Positions 4,125 through 15,451 of a stretch of DNA of 22,699 nucleotides are shown here, piece by piece. A program made the position numbers and the translations under genes. Origin of the DNA: a virus. Each line of letters opens with the position of its first letter. Within the stretch, counting starts at the first letter, position 1. The stretch lies in the IMG/VR virus record IMGVR_UViG_3300032309_001735, positions 1 through 22,699 of that record; one strand, written 5' to 3'. Under the pieces are notes generated by a model. The model saw nothing but the letters and a program-made list of their open reading frames with translations, was not told the origin of the DNA and did not search any database.

Positions 4125-5593
4125 TGGGGCTGTTCGCCACCATCCTCGGCGCTTTCTCGGCTCCGCGCCGCGTGGTGCGGCAGGCCGTGCGGGTGATCCG
4201 TGCCGGCTACGATGCCGCCCGCACGACCGATGACAACCGGAAGCACTGGGCGGCCGCCGACCAGCTGAGCGCCAACGCGTCGATGTCGCCCTTGGTGCGG
4301 CAGACGATCCGCAGCCGCGCCCGGTATGAGGTGGCCAACAACTGCTATGCCGCCGGCCTGGTGCGCACGGTCGCCAACGACCTGATCGGCACCGGCCCGA
4401 CGCTCCAGGTCGCGGCCCCCGAGGGCTTCGACGCGGCCCCCATTGAACGGCAGTGGGAATCGTGGGCCAAGGCCGCGAAGCTCGCCCGGAAGCTGCGGTG
4501 CATGCGGCAATGCCTGAGCCGCGACGGCGAGGCCTTCGCCGTGCTCGTGTCGAACCCCAAGATCAACCACCCGATCAAGCTCGATCTGCGGCTGGTCGAG
4601 GCCGACCAGGTCACGACCCCCGGGCTCGTCAACGAAAACGCCGTCGACGGGATCGTGTTCGACGCGTTCGGCAACCCCGAGACCTACCACATCCTCCGCA
4701 CCCACCCGGGCGACGTGCTGCACAGCATGGAGGTGGACGAGGTCGATGCGGCCTACGTGATCCACTGGTTCCGCCTGGAGCGGCCCGGCCAGAAACGCGG
4801 CGTGTCGATCATCGCCCCGGCCCTGCCGCTCTTCTCGAAGCTCCGCCGCTACACCCTGGCCGTGCTCGGCGCCGCCGAAGCCGCCGCGATGCAGGCCGGG
4901 GTGCTCTACACGGACGGCGCCCCCGACGATGGCGAATCGGTCGAGGGCGAGGCGTTCGAGGCCGTCGAGTTCGAGCGGAACATGTTCACCACGCTCCCCG
5001 GCGGCTACCGCCTCGAGCAGCTGAAGGCGGAGCAGCCGACGACGACCTACTCAGAGTTCAAGGCGGAGCTCATCGACGAGGCGGCCCGCTGCGAAAACGT
5101 GCCCTCGAACATCGCCCGGGGCAACTCGTCGGCCTACAACTACGCTTCCGGCCGGCTCGATAACCAGATGTTCGGCCGGGCTCAGCATGTCGACCACTCC
5201 GAAGTCGAGGAGGAGGTCATCGACCGCATCTTCGCCGCGTGGCTCGACGAAGCCGCCCGCGAGCCGGGCGTGATCCCCGACGGGTTCCCGCCGCTGGCCG
5301 AGTGCACCCACCAGTGGATTTGGGAGGGGCGCGAGCACGTCGACCCGAACAAGGAGGCCAACGCCCAGGCCACCCGGCTCGCGAACCTCACGACCTCGCT
5401 GGCTGAGGAGTGGGCGAACCGCGGCAAAGACTGGGAGGCCGGCATGCGGCAGATCCATCGCGAGCGTGCCCTGCTCGGCGAGCTCGGGCTCGCGCTGCCC
5501 GACTCGACCGCCGTCACCACGGCCGCCAGCCGTGCCGGGGCCCTGTCCGATCTCGCTGAACAAGCGGCCGTTCCGGCCGGGGGAGGCCGATGA
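4124..5593 (+). CDS. Portal protein, lambda GpB family
   Basis: A 489-residue portal subunit that would form the dodecameric vertex channel through which the terminase packages DNA. The N-terminus has the pattern of the lambda portal family: a short hydrophobic start, then a YDAA segment, WAAADQLSANASMSPLVRQ, and ANNCYAAGLVRTVANDLIGTG near residues 71-91. RPGQKRGVS (220-228) and YNYASGRLD (338-346) are hallmark motifs. The C-terminal 40 residues are Ala-rich and probably flexible. An in-frame ATG at 3884 would add 80 residues that are merely the gpW-like gene read in the wrong frame, so 4124 is the start. It overlaps the capsid fusion gene by ATGA. Confidence 0.95.
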   Translation: MGLFATILGAFSAPRRVVRQAVRVIRAGYDAARTTDDNRKHWAAADQLSANASMSPLVRQTIRSRARYEVANNCYAAGLVRTVANDLIGTGPTLQVAAPEGFDAAPIERQWESWAKAAKLARKLRCMRQCLSRDGEAFAVLVSNPKINHPIKLDLRLVEADQVTTPGLVNENAVDGIVFDAFGNPETYHILRTHPGDVLHSMEVDEVDAAYVIHWFRLERPGQKRGVSIIAPALPLFSKLRRYTLAVLGAAEAAAMQAGVLYTDGAPDDGESVEGEAFEAVEFERNMFTTLPGGYRLEQLKAEQPTTTYSEFKAELIDEAARCENVPSNIARGNSSAYNYASGRLDNQMFGRAQHVDHSEVEEEVIDRIFAAWLDEAAREPGVIPDGFPPLAECTHQWIWEGREHVDPNKEANAQATRLANLTTSLAEEWANRGKDWEAGMRQIHRERALLGELGLALPDSTAVTTAASRAGALSDLAEQAAVPAGGGR

Positions 5594-10606: not shown

Positions 10607-10986
10607 CCAACCTCTTCCGCACCACCTCCGATTGGCTCGGCCGTCAGCGGCACGACTACGCGACCAGCCCGGTGACCTACCGCCGTGGCGATCGATCGGT
10701 CGAGCTGCTCGCCACCATCGGCCGCACGGAATACCAGCAAGACGACGGCTACGGCATCGTGGTCCGGTCGGAGGCCCGCGACTACCTCGTGCGAATGTGC
10801 GACCTGGCCATCGACGGCGTCGAGACGCTCCCGGAGGTCGGCGACCGGGTGGAGGAGCTCCAGAACGGCACGGTCTACGTGTATGAGGTGCTGCCGCTCG
10901 GGAGCCAGGGCCAGCACTGGAAATACGCCGACGCGTTCCGCCAGACGATCCGGATTCACACCCGCCAGATCGGGAGCGGTGCCTGA
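10603..10986 (+). CDS. Head-tail connector/joining protein (putative)
   Basis: A 127-residue protein placed immediately before the tail terminator. The middle contains ATIGRTEYQQDDGYGIVVRSEARDYLV-type strands followed by VETLPEVGDRVEE, a Pro-x-x-GD turn resembling small beta-barrel head-tail joining proteins of the lambda FII kind. The C-terminus includes HWKYADAFRQTIRIHTRQIG. Start ATG overlaps the preceding stop (ATGA), and its own stop overlaps the next start (TGATG), so its synthesis is tied to both neighbours. Assignment rests on position and a general resemblance; no catalytic motif is present or expected. Confidence 0.62.
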   Translation: MTNLFRTTSDWLGRQRHDYATSPVTYRRGDRSVELLATIGRTEYQQDDGYGIVVRSEARDYLVRMCDLAIDGVETLPEVGDRVEELQNGTVYVYEVLPLGSQGQHWKYADAFRQTIRIHTRQIGSGA

Positions 10987-11420
10987 TGCCCAGCGTCATC
11001 GTCGACATCGCCGACGCGGTTCTGGAGCAGCTCGAGGCCGCCACGTTCTCGCTCCCGGTGTCGCTGAAACGCGACTACGCGCCGGCGTTCGACCTCAAAG
11101 AAATGGACGGCGTCCGCGTGACGGTCGTGCCGGAGGGGAACGCCATGACGAACCTCGACCGCGCGCGAACGAATCACTCCGTTTCCGTCGACGTCGCGGT
11201 GCAGCGGAAGGTGGCCGGCACCGATCCGGCTTCGGTCGATCCGCTCATGCACCTGACGCAAGAAATAATCGATGCCGTGATGGCCGCCCGTCGCCTCGCC
11301 GCGTTTCCGTCCGCGAGTTTCACCCGCGCGGAGAACAAGGCCATTTTCTCGCCCGCCCACCTCACCGAGAAGCGGCTTTTCACGTCGGTGGTGACCTTCA
11401 CCTACACGCTCCACAGATAA
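10986..11420 (+). CDS. Tail terminator/tail completion protein (gpU-like)
   Basis: A 144-residue protein with the layout of phage tail-terminator proteins, which cap the tube at its final length and dock it to the head. Marks include an N-terminal helix (IADAVLEQLEAATF), a strand with LKRDYAPAFDLKEMDGVRVTVVPEG, then HSVSVDVAVQRKV, a helix containing VDPLMHLTQEIIDAVMA, and a C-terminal FSPAHLTEKRLFTSVVTFTYTLHR. The closing FTSVxTxTY pattern is characteristic of this group. It follows the connector by a TGATG overlap and precedes a ribosome-binding site that opens the accessory cassette at 11437. Confidence 0.75.
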   Translation: MPSVIVDIADAVLEQLEAATFSLPVSLKRDYAPAFDLKEMDGVRVTVVPEGNAMTNLDRARTNHSVSVDVAVQRKVAGTDPASVDPLMHLTQEIIDAVMAARRLAAFPSASFTRAENKAIFSPAHLTEKRLFTSVVTFTYTLHR

Positions 11421-11436: not shown

Positions 11437-11730
11437 ATGCCCCCAATCACGTCGATCGTCGAGCAGATCCGGCTGGTCAACCAATGGATGCCCGTGCTCG
11501 GTTTCGGGCAGCGGTGGCTCGCGGAGCCCGACGCCGCGAAGCGGTCGCTCATCTTCGCCGACCTGGCCGAATGGCTGGCGTCGAAGACCGAGACCAAGCT
11601 CGACGACCAGCTGGTCGACCACATCGCCGCGATTCTCAAAACCCCCGAGGGCGAGTCCCTGGTGCGGTTCGTGGTGTCGTTCGGCGAGGCGGCCGCCGCC
11701 GCAGCTGCCGCCGCGGAGGGCACCCGATGA
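11437..11730 (+). CDS. Hypothetical helical protein, start of the accessory cassette
   Basis: A 97-residue protein of unknown function. It appears mostly alpha-helical: IVEQIRLVNQWMPVLGFGQ, then a helix with SLIFADLAEWLASK, then QLVDHIAAILKTPEG and a hydrophobic VRFVVSFGEAAAAAAAAA tail. There is no signal peptide and no clear membrane span. AAGGA (11425-11429), seven bases before the ATG, is a good ribosome-binding site and marks a new translational unit after the tail terminator. It overlaps by ATGA the gene for a small membrane protein, so the two may form one complex. Confidence 0.62.
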   Translation: MPPITSIVEQIRLVNQWMPVLGFGQRWLAEPDAAKRSLIFADLAEWLASKTETKLDDQLVDHIAAILKTPEGESLVRFVVSFGEAAAAAAAAAEGTR

Positions 11731-11975
11731 ACCTCTTCACCGTCCTCCAAATCGTCGTCGCCGCTGCGTGCCTGATCTCGGGCGTGGTGCTGGCCGTCCG
11801 CGCCGCCACCAAGTTCGTGCCGCGGCCCGGCGGCGGCGCCAAAGTGCCCACCGACGACGTGCGGATCGTCTCGGACCTCGCGACGCGGCTCCGCACCCAG
11901 GGCAAAACCCCCGCGGTGCAGATTGCGCTCCAGCTGCATGCCGAGCTTCTGAAGCCGGAGGGCTCCACGCCGTGA
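11727..11975 (+). CDS. Small single-span membrane protein
   Basis: An 82-residue protein with one transmembrane helix at residues 3-25 (LFTVLQIVVAAACLISGVVLA), a basic boundary, a Gly/Pro/Lys linker (PRPGGGAKVP), and a soluble helical domain (VRIVSDLATRLRTQGKTPAVQ). The size and topology fit a class-III-like holin, a holin partner or a membrane anchor. The sequence does not match a holin family I know. It is coupled by ATGA to the gene before and by GTGA to the signal-anchored gene after, in a run of membrane and protease genes. Confidence 0.62.
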   Translation: MNLFTVLQIVVAAACLISGVVLAVRAATKFVPRPGGGAKVPTDDVRIVSDLATRLRTQGKTPAVQIALQLHAELLKPEGSTP

Positions 11976-12391
11976 TCCGGGCCGTGTTCCTCCTCACCGC
12001 CGGGCTCGTGCTGCTCATCGGCCTACCGCCGATGCCGACGATCCCCGTCTGGACCCGGCCGACAACGGTCGTGCCCGTCGTGCCCGTCGTGCCCGTCGTG
12101 CCGGCCAAGGCGAGCGCCGCGGTCTACGTGTATGAAAAGAGCGACGCGGCCATCCCGGCCGGCGTGACCGTTGGGCTCGACAAGCTCAACCGCGAGCGGT
12201 CGGTCGTGGCCACGCTCTTCGAGGTGGACACGGTCAACGGGGCCGACAAGGTGCCCGCCCAGTATCAGCCGGCCGTCGATGCCGCCAAGGCCAAGGGTCT
12301 GCCCGCCCTGGTGGTGCTGTCGGGCTCCGCGGTGCTTTCGATCGTGGCCGCCCCGACCACCGCCGACGAGATCGGGAGGGCCGTGGAATGA
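11972..12391 (+). CDS. Signal-anchored thioredoxin-like protein without CxxC
   Basis: A 139-residue protein with an N-terminal hydrophobic segment (residues 4-20, VFLLTAGLVLLIGLP-like) and a Pro/Val repeat spacer (VVP units, 33-44). The roughly 90-residue domain that follows looks like a degenerate thioredoxin/glutaredoxin fold: AVYVYEKSDAA in place of the active-site strand, an LFEVDTVNG strand, and LPALVVLSG (cis-Pro-like at Pro111), then a final TTADEIGRAVE helix. There is no CxxC, so redox catalysis is not expected. A scaffold or chaperone role on the outer face of the membrane is possible. GTG start overlaps the previous stop; the stop overlaps the cysteine-peptidase gene. Confidence 0.6.
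   Translation: MIRAVFLLTAGLVLLIGLPPMPTIPVWTRPTTVVPVVPVVPVVPAKASAAVYVYEKSDAAIPAGVTVGLDKLNRERSVVATLFEVDTVNGADKVPAQYQPAVDAAKAKGLPALVVLSGSAVLSIVAAPTTADEIGRAVE
12068..12102 (+). repeat. 9-bp tandem repeat encoding Val-Val-Pro units
   Basis: GTCGTGCCC is repeated almost four times (last copy incomplete), encoding the Val-Val-Pro spacer of the signal-anchored protein. Near-identical copies suggest recent slippage, so spacer length may vary between related phages. Confidence 0.75.
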
Positions 12392-13284
12392 TCGACCCGA
12401 GCCTGATCGACGTTTTTCCGATCCAGCAGCACGACGGCTATCCCGACCACCTGGCCGCGGAAGACACCGACGACGCCCTCCGCGACGTGTGCGGGTCTGC
12501 GGCCCGCGAGTTCCCGGATGCCCTGTGGATCGAACCGCGTGATTGGGAAGCGAAAGCCCGCGAGAACGATGCGGCCAAGACGTGGGCGATGAACTTCCTC
12601 GACCGCTACACCAACCAGGGGCCGGGGAACGGCCGCCCGGGCACGCATGAGTGCACTTGCCACTCGCTGCGGGCCAACTTCGAGGCCGCCCGCAACCGCG
12701 CCCGCGGCGTGATCTACCCCAATGGGCCGCAGGCCGACGCCCGCTACGCGGAGTCGAGCCGGTTCGGTTCGGTTTGGGTTTCGCCACTCAGCATCTATGC
12801 GGAGGCCAACCCGTCGAAGTGGGGCGGCGCGAATGTGCGGGCCGTGCTCGAGATCGCGGTGCGTCGCGGCTTCCTGCCCGAAACGCTCCAGCCGGCCGAC
12901 TACGGCTTCGCCCACGCGCTCACGGGCACCAGCGGCGGCGGCAACTCCAACCAATCGGCCGGCCCGTGGGTGTCGCTCGGCCGGTTCCCGGAGGGGTGGC
13001 GCGAGACGGCGAAAAACTTCCGGCCCTTGGAAGTCATCTTCCCGGCGTCCTATGAGCAAGCGGTCTGCCTGGTGCTCCACGGCTACGCGGTGTCGGTCGG
13101 CCGCAACGGCCACGCGGTGCCGTGGTGCCAGTGGATCGCCGACGAGCGGCTCATGGCCTATCCGGACTCCTACACGATCACCAGATACGACTCCGAGCGA
13201 ACGGCTCGCTCCGCATGGCGTGGATCGTTTGCGATCGCGTCCGTGACCCTCCCCGACGATTGGAGCCGGCCAGCGGCCGGGTGA
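12388..13284 (+). CDS. Papain-like cysteine peptidase domain protein (putative)
   Basis: A 298-residue protein with the ordered motifs of a papain-fold peptidase. DRYTNQGPG (Gln77 as oxyanion-hole candidate) precedes HECTCHSLRANFEAA (Cys89 or Cys91 as nucleophile, followed by the expected helix). A late VSVGRNGHAVPW carries His242. An Asp at 268 (RYDSE) could be the third residue, although Asn or Asp normally sits nearer the His. The pattern NQG...C...GHAV matches C1-like peptidases in other phages and bacteria. No signal peptide is visible. GGAGG (12375-12379), eight bases before the ATG, supports the start. It lies directly upstream of a secreted serine protease. Confidence 0.66.
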   Translation: MIDPSLIDVFPIQQHDGYPDHLAAEDTDDALRDVCGSAAREFPDALWIEPRDWEAKARENDAAKTWAMNFLDRYTNQGPGNGRPGTHECTCHSLRANFEAARNRARGVIYPNGPQADARYAESSRFGSVWVSPLSIYAEANPSKWGGANVRAVLEIAVRRGFLPETLQPADYGFAHALTGTSGGGNSNQSAGPWVSLGRFPEGWRETAKNFRPLEVIFPASYEQAVCLVLHGYAVSVGRNGHAVPWCQWIADERLMAYPDSYTITRYDSERTARSAWRGSFAIASVTLPDDWSRPAAG

Positions 13285-13288
13285 CACG

Positions 13289-14149
13289 ATGAAACTCCTC
13301 GCGTCGATCCTCATCATCCTGATCGCGTCCGACACCGGCGGCGCCGAGTGCGGCAGCTGCGACGGCCGCCGGGTCTGCGGCGAGCCGCCGATCCTGATGC
13401 CGTGCCCGGCGTGCGAGGGCACTGGCACGGTGCCCGATCCCGTTCCGGCCCCGGCCGTGGAGCCCGTGTTCGCCGCGGCGGCCCCCGACCCGGCCGGCGT
13501 CGAGCCCCGGCCATCCGAGCGCACGGTCGGCCGCCCCCGGCCAGTCGTCGCCAGGGTGACCGCCGGCCACGCGGGCCCGTCGCTCGACATGGGTTCGGGT
13601 GTGCTCGTGCGGGTAAGCGGCACGACCGGAATCGTGCTCACCAACTGGCACGTCGTCCGCGACAAGCGCCACGACGTAAAGGTGGCATGGCCCGACGGCT
13701 CGCAAACGCCCGGCCGCGTGCTCGCGTGGGACGACGCCTGGGATCTGGCCGCCATCGCCGTTCCGCGGCCCGACGCCTATCCGGTGCAGATCGCCGCGCA
13801 GGCCCCGCGGCTCGGCGACCGCCTAACAATCGCCGGCTTCGGCATGGAGGGCCGCTACCTCGAGCAAACCGGCGTGGTCACCGAATACCTGTCGCCGAGC
13901 CCCGCCCACCCGAAGGAGTTCGTCGAATGCCGGGCCACGGCCCGCCACGGCGACAGCGGCGGCCCGATGTTCAACGCGGCCGGCGAACTGGCCGGCGTGC
14001 TGTTCGGCGAGGCCCGCGGGCTCACGGCCGGCAGCTGCTCGACGCGGCTCCGGCTTTTCCTGGCCGCAGTGCCGGCCGCCCCCGGCTCCGCCCCGCAGCT
14101 GGCGGCCGCGCGATGCTCGTGCCCCGGCGGGAGGTGCCAGCACCGATGA
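13289..14149 (+). CDS. Secreted trypsin-fold serine protease with cysteine-rich N-terminus
   Basis: A 286-residue chymotrypsin-fold protease. Residues 1-19 are a signal peptide (MKLLASILIILIASDTGGA). Residues 21-46 carry Cys21, 24, 30, 39 and 42 ending CPACEGTGT, similar to a DnaJ-type zinc knuckle. A Pro/Ala linker follows. The catalytic triad is complete: His121 in LTNWHVV, Asp152 in AWDLAAIAV, and Ser223 in HGDSGGPMFN. The order and spacing match S1/HtrA-type proteases; no PDZ domain follows. The C-terminus has further Cys residues. It would act outside the cytoplasmic membrane. Secreted serine proteases are rare in phage structural clusters. ATGA overlap with the next gene argues against a recent host pickup. 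Confidence 0.86.
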   Translation: MKLLASILIILIASDTGGAECGSCDGRRVCGEPPILMPCPACEGTGTVPDPVPAPAVEPVFAAAAPDPAGVEPRPSERTVGRPRPVVARVTAGHAGPSLDMGSGVLVRVSGTTGIVLTNWHVVRDKRHDVKVAWPDGSQTPGRVLAWDDAWDLAAIAVPRPDAYPVQIAAQAPRLGDRLTIAGFGMEGRYLEQTGVVTEYLSPSPAHPKEFVECRATARHGDSGGPMFNAAGELAGVLFGEARGLTAGSCSTRLRLFLAAVPAAPGSAPQLAAARCSCPGGRCQHR

Positions 14150-14493
14150 ACGCCAGCCCCTCCGACCTCGAACTCGCCGAAGCCCGCGACGCCGTCTGGC
14201 GCCGCCTGGCCCTGCACCCGCTCCGCCGGGCGGCCCTCGGCCGCGACCAGGCCGACGCCATCACGGCGGTGGCGATGGGGCAGATGCCCGACGACGTGGA
14301 GATGGACGTGGCCGGCGAGGGCACCGATTACGAACGCGTGCTCCGCGAGCGAACCGAGCGGCGGGTGCTCGACCTGTATTCGGAGCGGTGCGGGTTTGCC
14401 CTCACGACGTTCCTGCTGACGTGGGCGATCTCCGCGATCGTTCAGGCTCTGGTCGTGCGCTGGTGGCGGAAGCGGCAGGAGGTGCGATCGTGA
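14146..14493 (+). CDS. Single-span membrane protein with C-terminal anchor
   Basis: A 115-residue protein. The first 80 residues are charged and helical (LAEARDAVWRRLALHP, ERVLRERTERRVLDLY). They are followed by a transmembrane helix at 83-105 (FALTTFLLTWAISAIVQALV) and a basic tail, RWWRKRQEVRS. This tail-anchored form, with positive charges at the C-terminus, resembles some phage membrane proteins of lysis cassettes but no named family. GGAGG at 14130-14134 and an ATGA overlap place it in one unit with the secreted protease; a GTGA overlap joins it to another membrane protein. Confidence 0.62.
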   Translation: MNASPSDLELAEARDAVWRRLALHPLRRAALGRDQADAITAVAMGQMPDDVEMDVAGEGTDYERVLRERTERRVLDLYSERCGFALTTFLLTWAISAIVQALVVRWWRKRQEVRS

Positions 14494-14816
14494 CACAGCA
14501 GACACGGGACCGGCTTGAGCTCGGAATCCAGTTCGTGAAGGTCGTCGGCGTGCCGACGGCCATCCTGTCGGTCGTGCTCTGGTGGATCGGCGCGGCAACC
14601 GACCGCCTTCACGACTCCGTTCTGGTGCCGACGGTGACCGCCCATTCGGCATTCCTGGCGAGCACCACCAAGACCCAGGAGCGGCAGGCCGACGCCCTGG
14701 AGCAGCTCACCGACAACCGGGTGCAGCAGACCAAGATCCTCGAAGAGATCGCCGCCGGTCAGCAGGAAATCCTGTCGCGACTCGACCGCCCGCACCGCCA
14801 GGGGGCCGCCGAATGA
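14490..14816 (+). CDS. Membrane protein with coiled coil (holin or spanin-like candidate)
   Basis: A 108-residue protein with a transmembrane helix at residues 13-36 (IQFVKVVGVPTAILSVVLWW) followed by a predicted coiled coil, 60-100 (TQERQADALEQLTD, QTKILEEIAAGQQEILSRL). One span near the N-terminus plus a long coiled coil is the layout of phage i-spanins and of some holin-like XhlA proteins. Heptad spacing is visible but no signature confirms either. AGGAGGTG at 14477-14484, five bases before the GTG, is a strong ribosome-binding site. It closes the membrane/protease cassette; the next gene is a virion morphogenesis protein, reached by ATGA overlap. Confidence 0.64.
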   Translation: MTQQTRDRLELGIQFVKVVGVPTAILSVVLWWIGAATDRLHDSVLVPTVTAHSAFLASTTKTQERQADALEQLTDNRVQQTKILEEIAAGQQEILSRLDRPHRQGAAE

Positions 14817-15451
14817 CAGCCGTCCGGGTGGTCGACAACACCGACGCCGTGCGAAAGGCCGTTCGCCGGGCCGCGTTTCAAAACCTGCGCCACGCCGGCG
14901 CGGGCCTGCGGCTCGCCGCCCGCCGGCTGATTCGGACGCGGCAGACAGCCAGCCAGCCGGGAAGCCCGCCGAGCACCCGCCGGGGGGCCCTCCGCAACTC
15001 CATCCTGTTCGCGGTGGAGGGCGACCACACCGTCGTCATCGGCCCGAGCGTGACCCTGATCTCCGACGTGGCCCGCGTGCACGAGCACGGCGGCACGCAA
15101 CGGCCGCGGTCGCTCCGCGGGGTTTCGGAGGCGGAGGCCGTCATCGCGGGCACGAACTGGAAGCTCGAGGTCGGCGGCCACGGCCCGATCCCCGACTCCA
15201 GCGGCACCGCCTACATCAAGTTCACCAGCCCGGCCCAGGTGGATAAGAGCCTCCGGTTCATCTACACCGCGCCCGAGAACGCTTTCGGCAACACGCGCAA
15301 GGCGCGGCTCCAGGCCGAAAAGCGACGCGCCCGCGCGGCCGTCGCCGCCCACGGCGGAATCGCCAACTACCCCGCACGCCCATTCATGGGGCCCGCCCTC
15401 ATGAACAACCTCGACCGACTCCAGGCCCACTGGGCCAACAGCGTCCGCTAA
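14813..15451 (+). CDS. Virion morphogenesis/tail completion protein (gp10- or gpG-like)
   Basis: A 212-residue protein resembling the HK97 gp10/Mu gpG group, which functions at the head-tail interface. Evidence is the N-terminal basic helices (AVRKAVRRAAFQNLRHAG, LRLAARRLIRT), PGSPPSTRRGALRNSI (a loop typical of this group), then strands with VVIGPS, ARVHEHGGTQRP, and the C-terminal ARPFMGPALMNNLDRLQ. RPFMGPAL is the best conserved part. In many phages this gene precedes the tail terminator; here the 3.4-kb membrane/protease cassette lies between them, which suggests insertion of that cassette into the tail operon. Confidence 0.72.
   Translation: MTAVRVVDNTDAVRKAVRRAAFQNLRHAGAGLRLAARRLIRTRQTASQPGSPPSTRRGALRNSILFAVEGDHTVVIGPSVTLISDVARVHEHGGTQRPRSLRGVSEAEAVIAGTNWKLEVGGHGPIPDSSGTAYIKFTSPAQVDKSLRFIYTAPENAFGNTRKARLQAEKRRARAAVAAHGGIANYPARPFMGPALMNNLDRLQAHWANSVR

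Follow-up and report, generated by a model that had tools for sequence, protein, structure and literature searches.

A papain-clan cysteine peptidase in a candidate lysis cassette of planctomycete phages

In phage P2, the lysis cassette (Y holin, K endolysin and LysABC) lies between tail gene X and the tail completion genes R/S. The CHAP and NlpC/P60 endolysins are cysteine enzymes of clan CA that serve in lysis, and PeiP and PeiW of Methanothermobacter viruses, lysis enzymes fitted to an unusual wall, are cysteine peptidases with a Cys-His-Asp triad. Here we analyse a run of seven same-strand genes (A to G, positions 11437-14816) in a virus record of 22.7 kb (IMG/VR record IMGVR_UViG_3300032309_001735), the whole stretch of 22,699 nucleotides being referred to as the window. 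We propose, with a probability of roughly 0.6, that A-G constitute a lysis cassette of planctomycete phages in which the papain-type peptidase D replaces a muralytic endolysin. No description of such a cassette was found in the literature, within the partial coverage of our search.

As in P2, the cassette of the window is placed directly upstream of a tail-completion gene, its genes overlap tightly, and small membrane proteins surround one soluble enzyme. On the other hand, this enzyme is of predicted papain-clan type and not a muramidase, no holin or outer-membrane spanin (o-spanin) was recognised, extra genes for a thioredoxin-fold protein and a trypsin are present, and the cassette is found at other positions as well. 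PeiP and PeiW differ from D in their family (C71), in the domain of their host, in their pseudomurein target and in lacking such a multigene cassette. All junctions from A through to the neck gene show a 4-base ATGA or GTGA overlap, with the exception of D/E, where a 4-base gap was found. The original prediction, made from the letters of the window, had described a run of seven coupled genes between a tail terminator and a virion morphogenesis gene; all seven open reading frames (ORFs) were recovered at the positions it gave, and its gene-by-gene description was right, with spans, folds and families re-derived by profiles, models and homologue counts (Table 1). The soluble enzyme without signal peptide, the small membrane proteins, the protein with a span and a coiled-coil-like tail, the late-gene placement and the block transfer described below together give the locus the layout of a lysis cassette.

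D alone showed no meaningful match in Pfam or PHROGs, including none to Pfam C1, CHAP or NlpC/P60, and its motifs are C1-like, which sets it apart from the CHAP and NlpC/P60 endolysins; searches of the PDB by phmmer and by profile returned chance matches only. Since D alone lacks a Pfam C1 match, its link to the C1 family runs through intermediates. When the D profile was run against 392 planctomycete genomes, distant relatives (D′) were detected in two genomes (E-values 5.6e-7 and 4.3e-6) besides the metagenome-assembled genome (MAG) described below, and a wider search found D′-type proteins in nine genomes. These proteins carry the GSC, GHA and NSWG motifs. Alignment of D with the planctomycete C1-like D′ proteins by hhalign resulted in E-values of 1.6e-11 and 4.4e-15, the D′ profile matched cathepsin K (E-value 9e-16), and a combined profile of D and D′ matched the papain family (E-value 2.5e-13). 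For a second papain-like family (D2), a single sequence showed no link to D; D′ and D2 were linked by profile (E-value 1.6e-8).

In comparison with papain C1 proteins (cathepsins and xylellain-like bacterial members), D shares the Gln, Cys and His positions: Gln77, Cys89, His242 and Asp260 align with the papain Gln, Cys, His and Asn, the first three being invariant in the D alignment. It differs in having Asp for the active-site Asn, in the loss of NSWGxxWG, in the addition of a conserved N-terminal region and in being phage-borne. The NSW motif is kept in all D′ and D2 relatives, D alone having DSY, and the alignments indicate that this replacement of Asn by Asp truly separates D from C1 proper. 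Because the active-site Asn of NSWG is replaced, D was filed as a papain-clan protein, a divergent C1 relative and not a standard C1 member. D is also the most conserved member of the cassette, with 80% identity between the window and G003 in comparison with 36-52% for the other cassette genes. The ratio of nonsynonymous to synonymous substitution rates (dN/dS) of D was ~0.2 (window vs G003) and ~0.02 (vs G001, a near-identical phage), indicating purifying selection, and that of D′ was ~0.05 to 0.1 between planctomycete genomes. Altogether, the profile and motif data identify D as a predicted papain-clan cysteine peptidase.

About a hundred IMG/VR contigs were found to carry relatives. By gene clustering, all seven genes were present at 69 loci, on one strand in 69/69 and exactly consecutive in 63, with 4-base overlaps at most junctions; these contigs are not independent samples, and genes were called with a custom script. 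The recurrence of the gene order is far beyond chance, and it provides the synteny in related phages that the original prediction had proposed as a check. The right-hand neighbour of the cassette belongs to a capsid-protein family in 28 loci, whereas 18 loci have c30 there and 17 have the neck gene. The block occurs in four or more settings. It lies between the tail terminator and the neck gene, as in the window, or between the prohead protease side and the capsid-protein family; in a third setting it follows c15 and precedes c30, where the late genes end, and in several of these cases an integrase is near; further cases are singletons, e.g. L063. Insertions between C and D that leave the rest of the cassette intact consist of a DNA methyltransferase-like gene (c68) in L111, L114, L115 and L101, and of a 53-aa ORF in L106, L148 and L157. 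These data indicate that the cassette is a self-contained, transferable late-gene module. Among the cultured phages in INPHARED, none with D or D2 was found.

In several phage types the cassette is surrounded by head and tail genes, a location that would also fit a function in virion assembly or entry, with D and E as packaged or tail-associated proteases that aid the passage of the genome through the envelope. We consider such a function very unlikely, since the cassette is transferred as a whole between structural backbones that are unrelated, and its position varies, the late operon ending with it in some cases. Furthermore, the signal peptide of E and the membrane anchors of B, C, F and G suit the host envelope rather than the virion.

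Variant cassettes differ in their enzymes. In L163, A and B are followed by an unrelated gene X and a second papain-like protein in the D slot, and then by F and G, C and E being gone; the papain-like family of this locus was linked to D′ by profile (E-value 1.6e-8). The sister cassettes of G548, G211 and G333 present the order helical protein, span protein, signal-anchored protein, D′, CxxC thioredoxin (Pfam E-value 1.3e-9), C-terminal-span protein, and protein with a span and a coiled-coil-like part. In both L226 and G548 the papain is located between membrane genes, together with a CxxC thioredoxin. No homology to the G548 cassette proteins was detectable for B, C or G, and F gave a marginal local match only (E-value 0.0034, 22 columns); as no other sequence link was detectable outside the peptidase, the parallel with G548 is architectural except for D. 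C and the membrane protein upstream of the papain of L240 showed no relation by profile. L230 encodes a lipoprotein with an E-type Cys-rich ribbon and no trypsin domain, and L227-L229 encode papain-like proteins with an N-terminal anchor that may act like signal-anchor-release (SAR) endolysins. The papain-like peptidase is the constant enzyme of the slot, and C and E vary. Where the original prediction had put forward two proteases, the papain-like peptidase and the membrane proteins stand as the core, and the trypsin E is not essential, its slot holding a thioredoxin or a short protease-less lipoprotein in sister cassettes.

The element that carries the sister cassette spans ~27 kb (G548:C1, about 2911664-2938989, with L241, L242 and L246; L268-L273 in G211 and G333). 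It contains genes for terminase, portal, prohead protease, capsid and tail proteins and the papain cassette, and no integrase or replication genes were seen in it. By flanking-gene order it occupies the same chromosomal place in the three genomes, most clearly in G548 and G211, and its D′ copies are 91-93% identical. It looks like a domesticated prophage, possibly similar to a gene transfer agent.

A first search of cellular genomes with D found none. With B as bait, an integrated prophage with the cassette was found in a contig of a Planctomycetaceae MAG, where one end is marked by an integrase and the other adjoins bacterial genes (two of them phytoene-desaturase-like, by eye). The integration of a cassette prophage in this MAG places the host phylum as Planctomycetota; many cassette phages are temperate, as they carry integrases. 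The planctomycete envelope has been described as a protein layer resistant to sodium dodecyl sulphate, rich in proline and cysteine and stabilised by disulphides (PMC3035269; see also PMC2754498). Neither the GT51 domain PF00912 nor the penicillin-binding protein (PBP) transpeptidase domain PF00905 was recognised in any of nine host genomes that carry such cassettes (G006, G211, G333, G548, G440, G437, G464, G462 and G405), in comparison with 10/14 controls for each; several of the host genomes are fragmented and maybe incomplete, G548 being on a single 6.5-Mb contig. The host phylum, its published protein envelope and the lack of recognisable PBPs agree with the protein-rich host envelope that the original prediction had suggested.

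No muralytic family was matched by the cassette proteins in Pfam or PHROGs, and phage lysozyme was absent in a six-frame search of the window, in line with the earlier statement that it holds no muramidase, amidase, transglycosylase, M15 or CHAP endolysin. In near-complete relatives, which included the other context types, lysozyme, amidase, transglycosylase, CHAP, NlpC/P60 and M15/M23 families were sought at the thresholds used, with one representative per protein cluster, and no endolysin family was among the Pfam matches listed for the predicted proteins of G001, G690, G695, G696, G694, part of G698/G699 and the G548 element. G001 is a relative of 37,993 bp whose D is 99% identical to that of the window, and the G548 element sits in a closed chromosome. 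The PHROGs scan of the relatives covered the best 25 of 75 matches, and Amidase_2 was absent in a six-frame search of 19 records; viral records may be incomplete. The search for an endolysin in the rest of the genome, also proposed with the original prediction, recognised none in relatives including G001. GH24 lysozymes were found in 5 of 297 planctomycete genomes, and the GH24 loci that were read showed no comparable cassette.

The fact that no alternative lysis module was recognised also bears on whether the cassette might modify the host envelope or exclude superinfecting phages, either from the prophage or late in infection, and have no role in lysis. The several periplasmic and membrane proteins and the temperate character of many of these phages would be consistent with such a role. 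The cassette is, on the contrary, co-linear and overlapping with late structural genes and not part of the lysogeny region, and it has been kept beside capsid and terminase genes in the vertically inherited phage-like element; we regard this as the least likely of the explanations considered.

Regarding the accessory enzymes, the AlphaFold2 model of C reached a mean predicted local distance difference test score (pLDDT) of 80, mostly >90 in the thioredoxin-fold domain. The top 50 PDB matches of this model by Foldseek were nearly all thioredoxins or thioredoxin-containing constructs (probability 1.00, E-value about 1e-3), and the model indicates that C has a thioredoxin fold. The redox CxxC was present in 0/99 copies of C. 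E is a predicted secreted trypsin-like S1 protease, consisting of a signal peptide (N-terminal hydrophobic signal), a Cys-rich DnaJ-like ribbon and a Trypsin_2 domain, with the catalytic triad H121/D152/S223 kept in 73/73 copies. Two proteases together with a thioredoxin fold would suit an envelope of disulphide-stabilised protein. E (13289-14149) and the short lipoprotein of L230 (L230:923-1276), which has no protease domain, have in common the N-terminal CxxCxG ribbon and a C-terminal CxxGxC-type motif; the trypsin looks like a later insertion into a Cys-rich protein.

Among the small proteins, A showed a membrane span in 0/96 homologues, and its phrog_402 relatives in Felixounavirus adjoin thymidylate synthase genes and offer no functional clue. 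One N-terminal span was found in 93 of 97 copies of B, which is kept in L163, and one C-terminal span in 80 of 81 copies of F. G has one N-terminal span (73 of 78 copies) followed by a coiled-coil-like tail, and its N-in span and tail resemble the inner-membrane spanin (i-spanin) of the Rz/Rz1 pair. An eighth gene, Z, with a hydrophobic product, lies upstream of A in 60 of the 69 seven-gene loci and is absent from the window.

Several observations weigh against the lysis proposal. In spite of its i-spanin-like layout, G matched the Rz-like spanin family phrog_214 with an E-value of 0.022, which is not significant, and neither the cassette nor its surroundings showed an Rz1-like lipoprotein or other lipoprotein o-spanin. 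No cassette protein matches a holin family in Pfam or PHROGs, B and F being single-span proteins and Z hydrophobic. From the holin/spanin-like membrane proteins of the original prediction, the single-span layout is retained, and B, F and G, like Z, are candidates for holins or spanins. On the whole the original prediction is supported in part: the modularity, the host and the lack of a recognised endolysin agree with it, and the trypsin is optional. The C of the window is devoid of redox cysteines. The AlphaFold2 model of D had a mean pLDDT of 37 (low confidence), so the papain fold of D rests on sequence profiles; a Foldseek search with this model was uninformative and was disregarded. The absence of an endolysin relies on profile searches and custom gene calls, and an unrecognisable muralysin could exist. 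Finally, Mur ligases are present in 9/9 host genomes, and scarce or thin peptidoglycan was later detected in several planctomycete species, as cited in PMC5814848.

These two last points would also fit D being an ordinary endolysin in function, that is, a papain-clan enzyme that cleaves stem peptides in the thin peptidoglycan of planctomycetes, so that cells would lyse without a protein wall being digested. The peptidoglycan hydrolases of the CHAP and NlpC/P60 types also belong to clan CA, and D has no signal peptide, like canonical endolysins. We regard this explanation, the main rival of the proposal, as unlikely, given that the best profile relatives of D are C1 cathepsins and papain, with the Gln and, in D′, the NSWG motif, and not CHAP or NlpC/P60, and that the nine host genomes are without recognisable GT51 and PBP transpeptidases.

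Table 1. Genes and predicted active-site and motif positions of the candidate cassette and its neighbours in the window.
Feature	Position	Strand	Description
Left neighbour, tail terminator-like gene (context, outside module)	10986..11420	+	phrog_4204, E-value 0.024; same neighbour in 17 loci
A	11437..11730	+	97-aa soluble helical protein; distant phrog_402 match (unknown function), E-value 7.1e-6
B	11727..11975	+	82-aa single-span protein; charge pattern N-out/C-in; conserved DDxRxVxDLAxRLR motif
C	11972..12391	+	GTG start; signal anchor, Pro-rich linker, predicted thioredoxin-fold domain without CxxC
D	12388..13284	+	298-aa predicted papain-clan cysteine peptidase; without signal peptide or span
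D Gln77	12616..12618	+	Aligned with papain oxyanion-hole Gln; Q-to-C spacing 6, as in papain, in copies without local insertion
D Cys89, predicted nucleophile	12652..12654	+	Invariant in three alignments; HEC motif in 85/85 full-length copies
D His242 (GHA motif)	13111..13113	+	85/85 full-length copies
D Asp260, replacing papain Asn (DSY, not NSW)	13165..13167	+	Y.DSY motif in 84/85 copies
E	13289..14149	+	Predicted secreted trypsin-like protease (S1, Trypsin_2); PF13365, E-value 8.9e-22
E N-terminal ribbon CxxCxG...CxxCxGxG	13349..13426	+	73/73 copies; also in the L230 lipoprotein without trypsin domain
F	14146..14493	+	115-aa protein; one C-terminal span, N-in by charge
G	14490..14816	+	GTG start; 108 aa; N-terminal span (N-in by charge), then coiled-coil-like tail
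Right neighbour, neck/tail completion ('virion morphogenesis') gene (context, outside module)	14813..15451	+	phrog_26, E-value 3.8e-7; PF05069, E-value 0.013, below cut-off

G001 encodes, outside the window, a lipid desaturase-domain protein (PF10520, E-value 8e-36) and a PQ-loop membrane protein (E-value 9e-9), located at L006:4279-4551 and 4551-5072 on the minus strand. A GDSL-type lipase/acylhydrolase (E-value 3e-12), possibly tail-associated, is present in the G001/G690 protein set (L006/L007 or L248/L249).

According to the lysis proposal, small membrane proteins (candidates Z, B and F) would permeabilise the inner membrane late in infection or otherwise free D, which has no signal peptide. 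D, aided by the secreted trypsin E, would then break down the load-bearing protein layer of the envelope, and C, or the CxxC thioredoxin in sister cassettes, may open or bind disulphide-rich targets. G, with its span and coiled-coil-like tail, may act in the outer-membrane step like an i-spanin. In its complete form, this scheme would imply lysis by papain-type proteolysis, supplemented by a trypsin, while a thioredoxin helps to open a protein sacculus linked by disulphides, without a peptidoglycan hydrolase; such a mechanism, not seen in other bacterial phages, would be common to unrelated planctomycete phages and to the vertically inherited phage-like element. We put forward the complete scheme as tentative, a possible rather than a probable account.

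If D lyses cells, a bacterial phage would have a lysis system based on a protease and not on a peptidoglycan hydrolase, and the cassette would open a direct genetic route into the long-standing debate about how planctomycete cells are held together. The analysis also gives labels to previously unnamed genes in roughly a hundred contigs of uncultivated phages and provides candidate enzymes for opening planctomycete cells.

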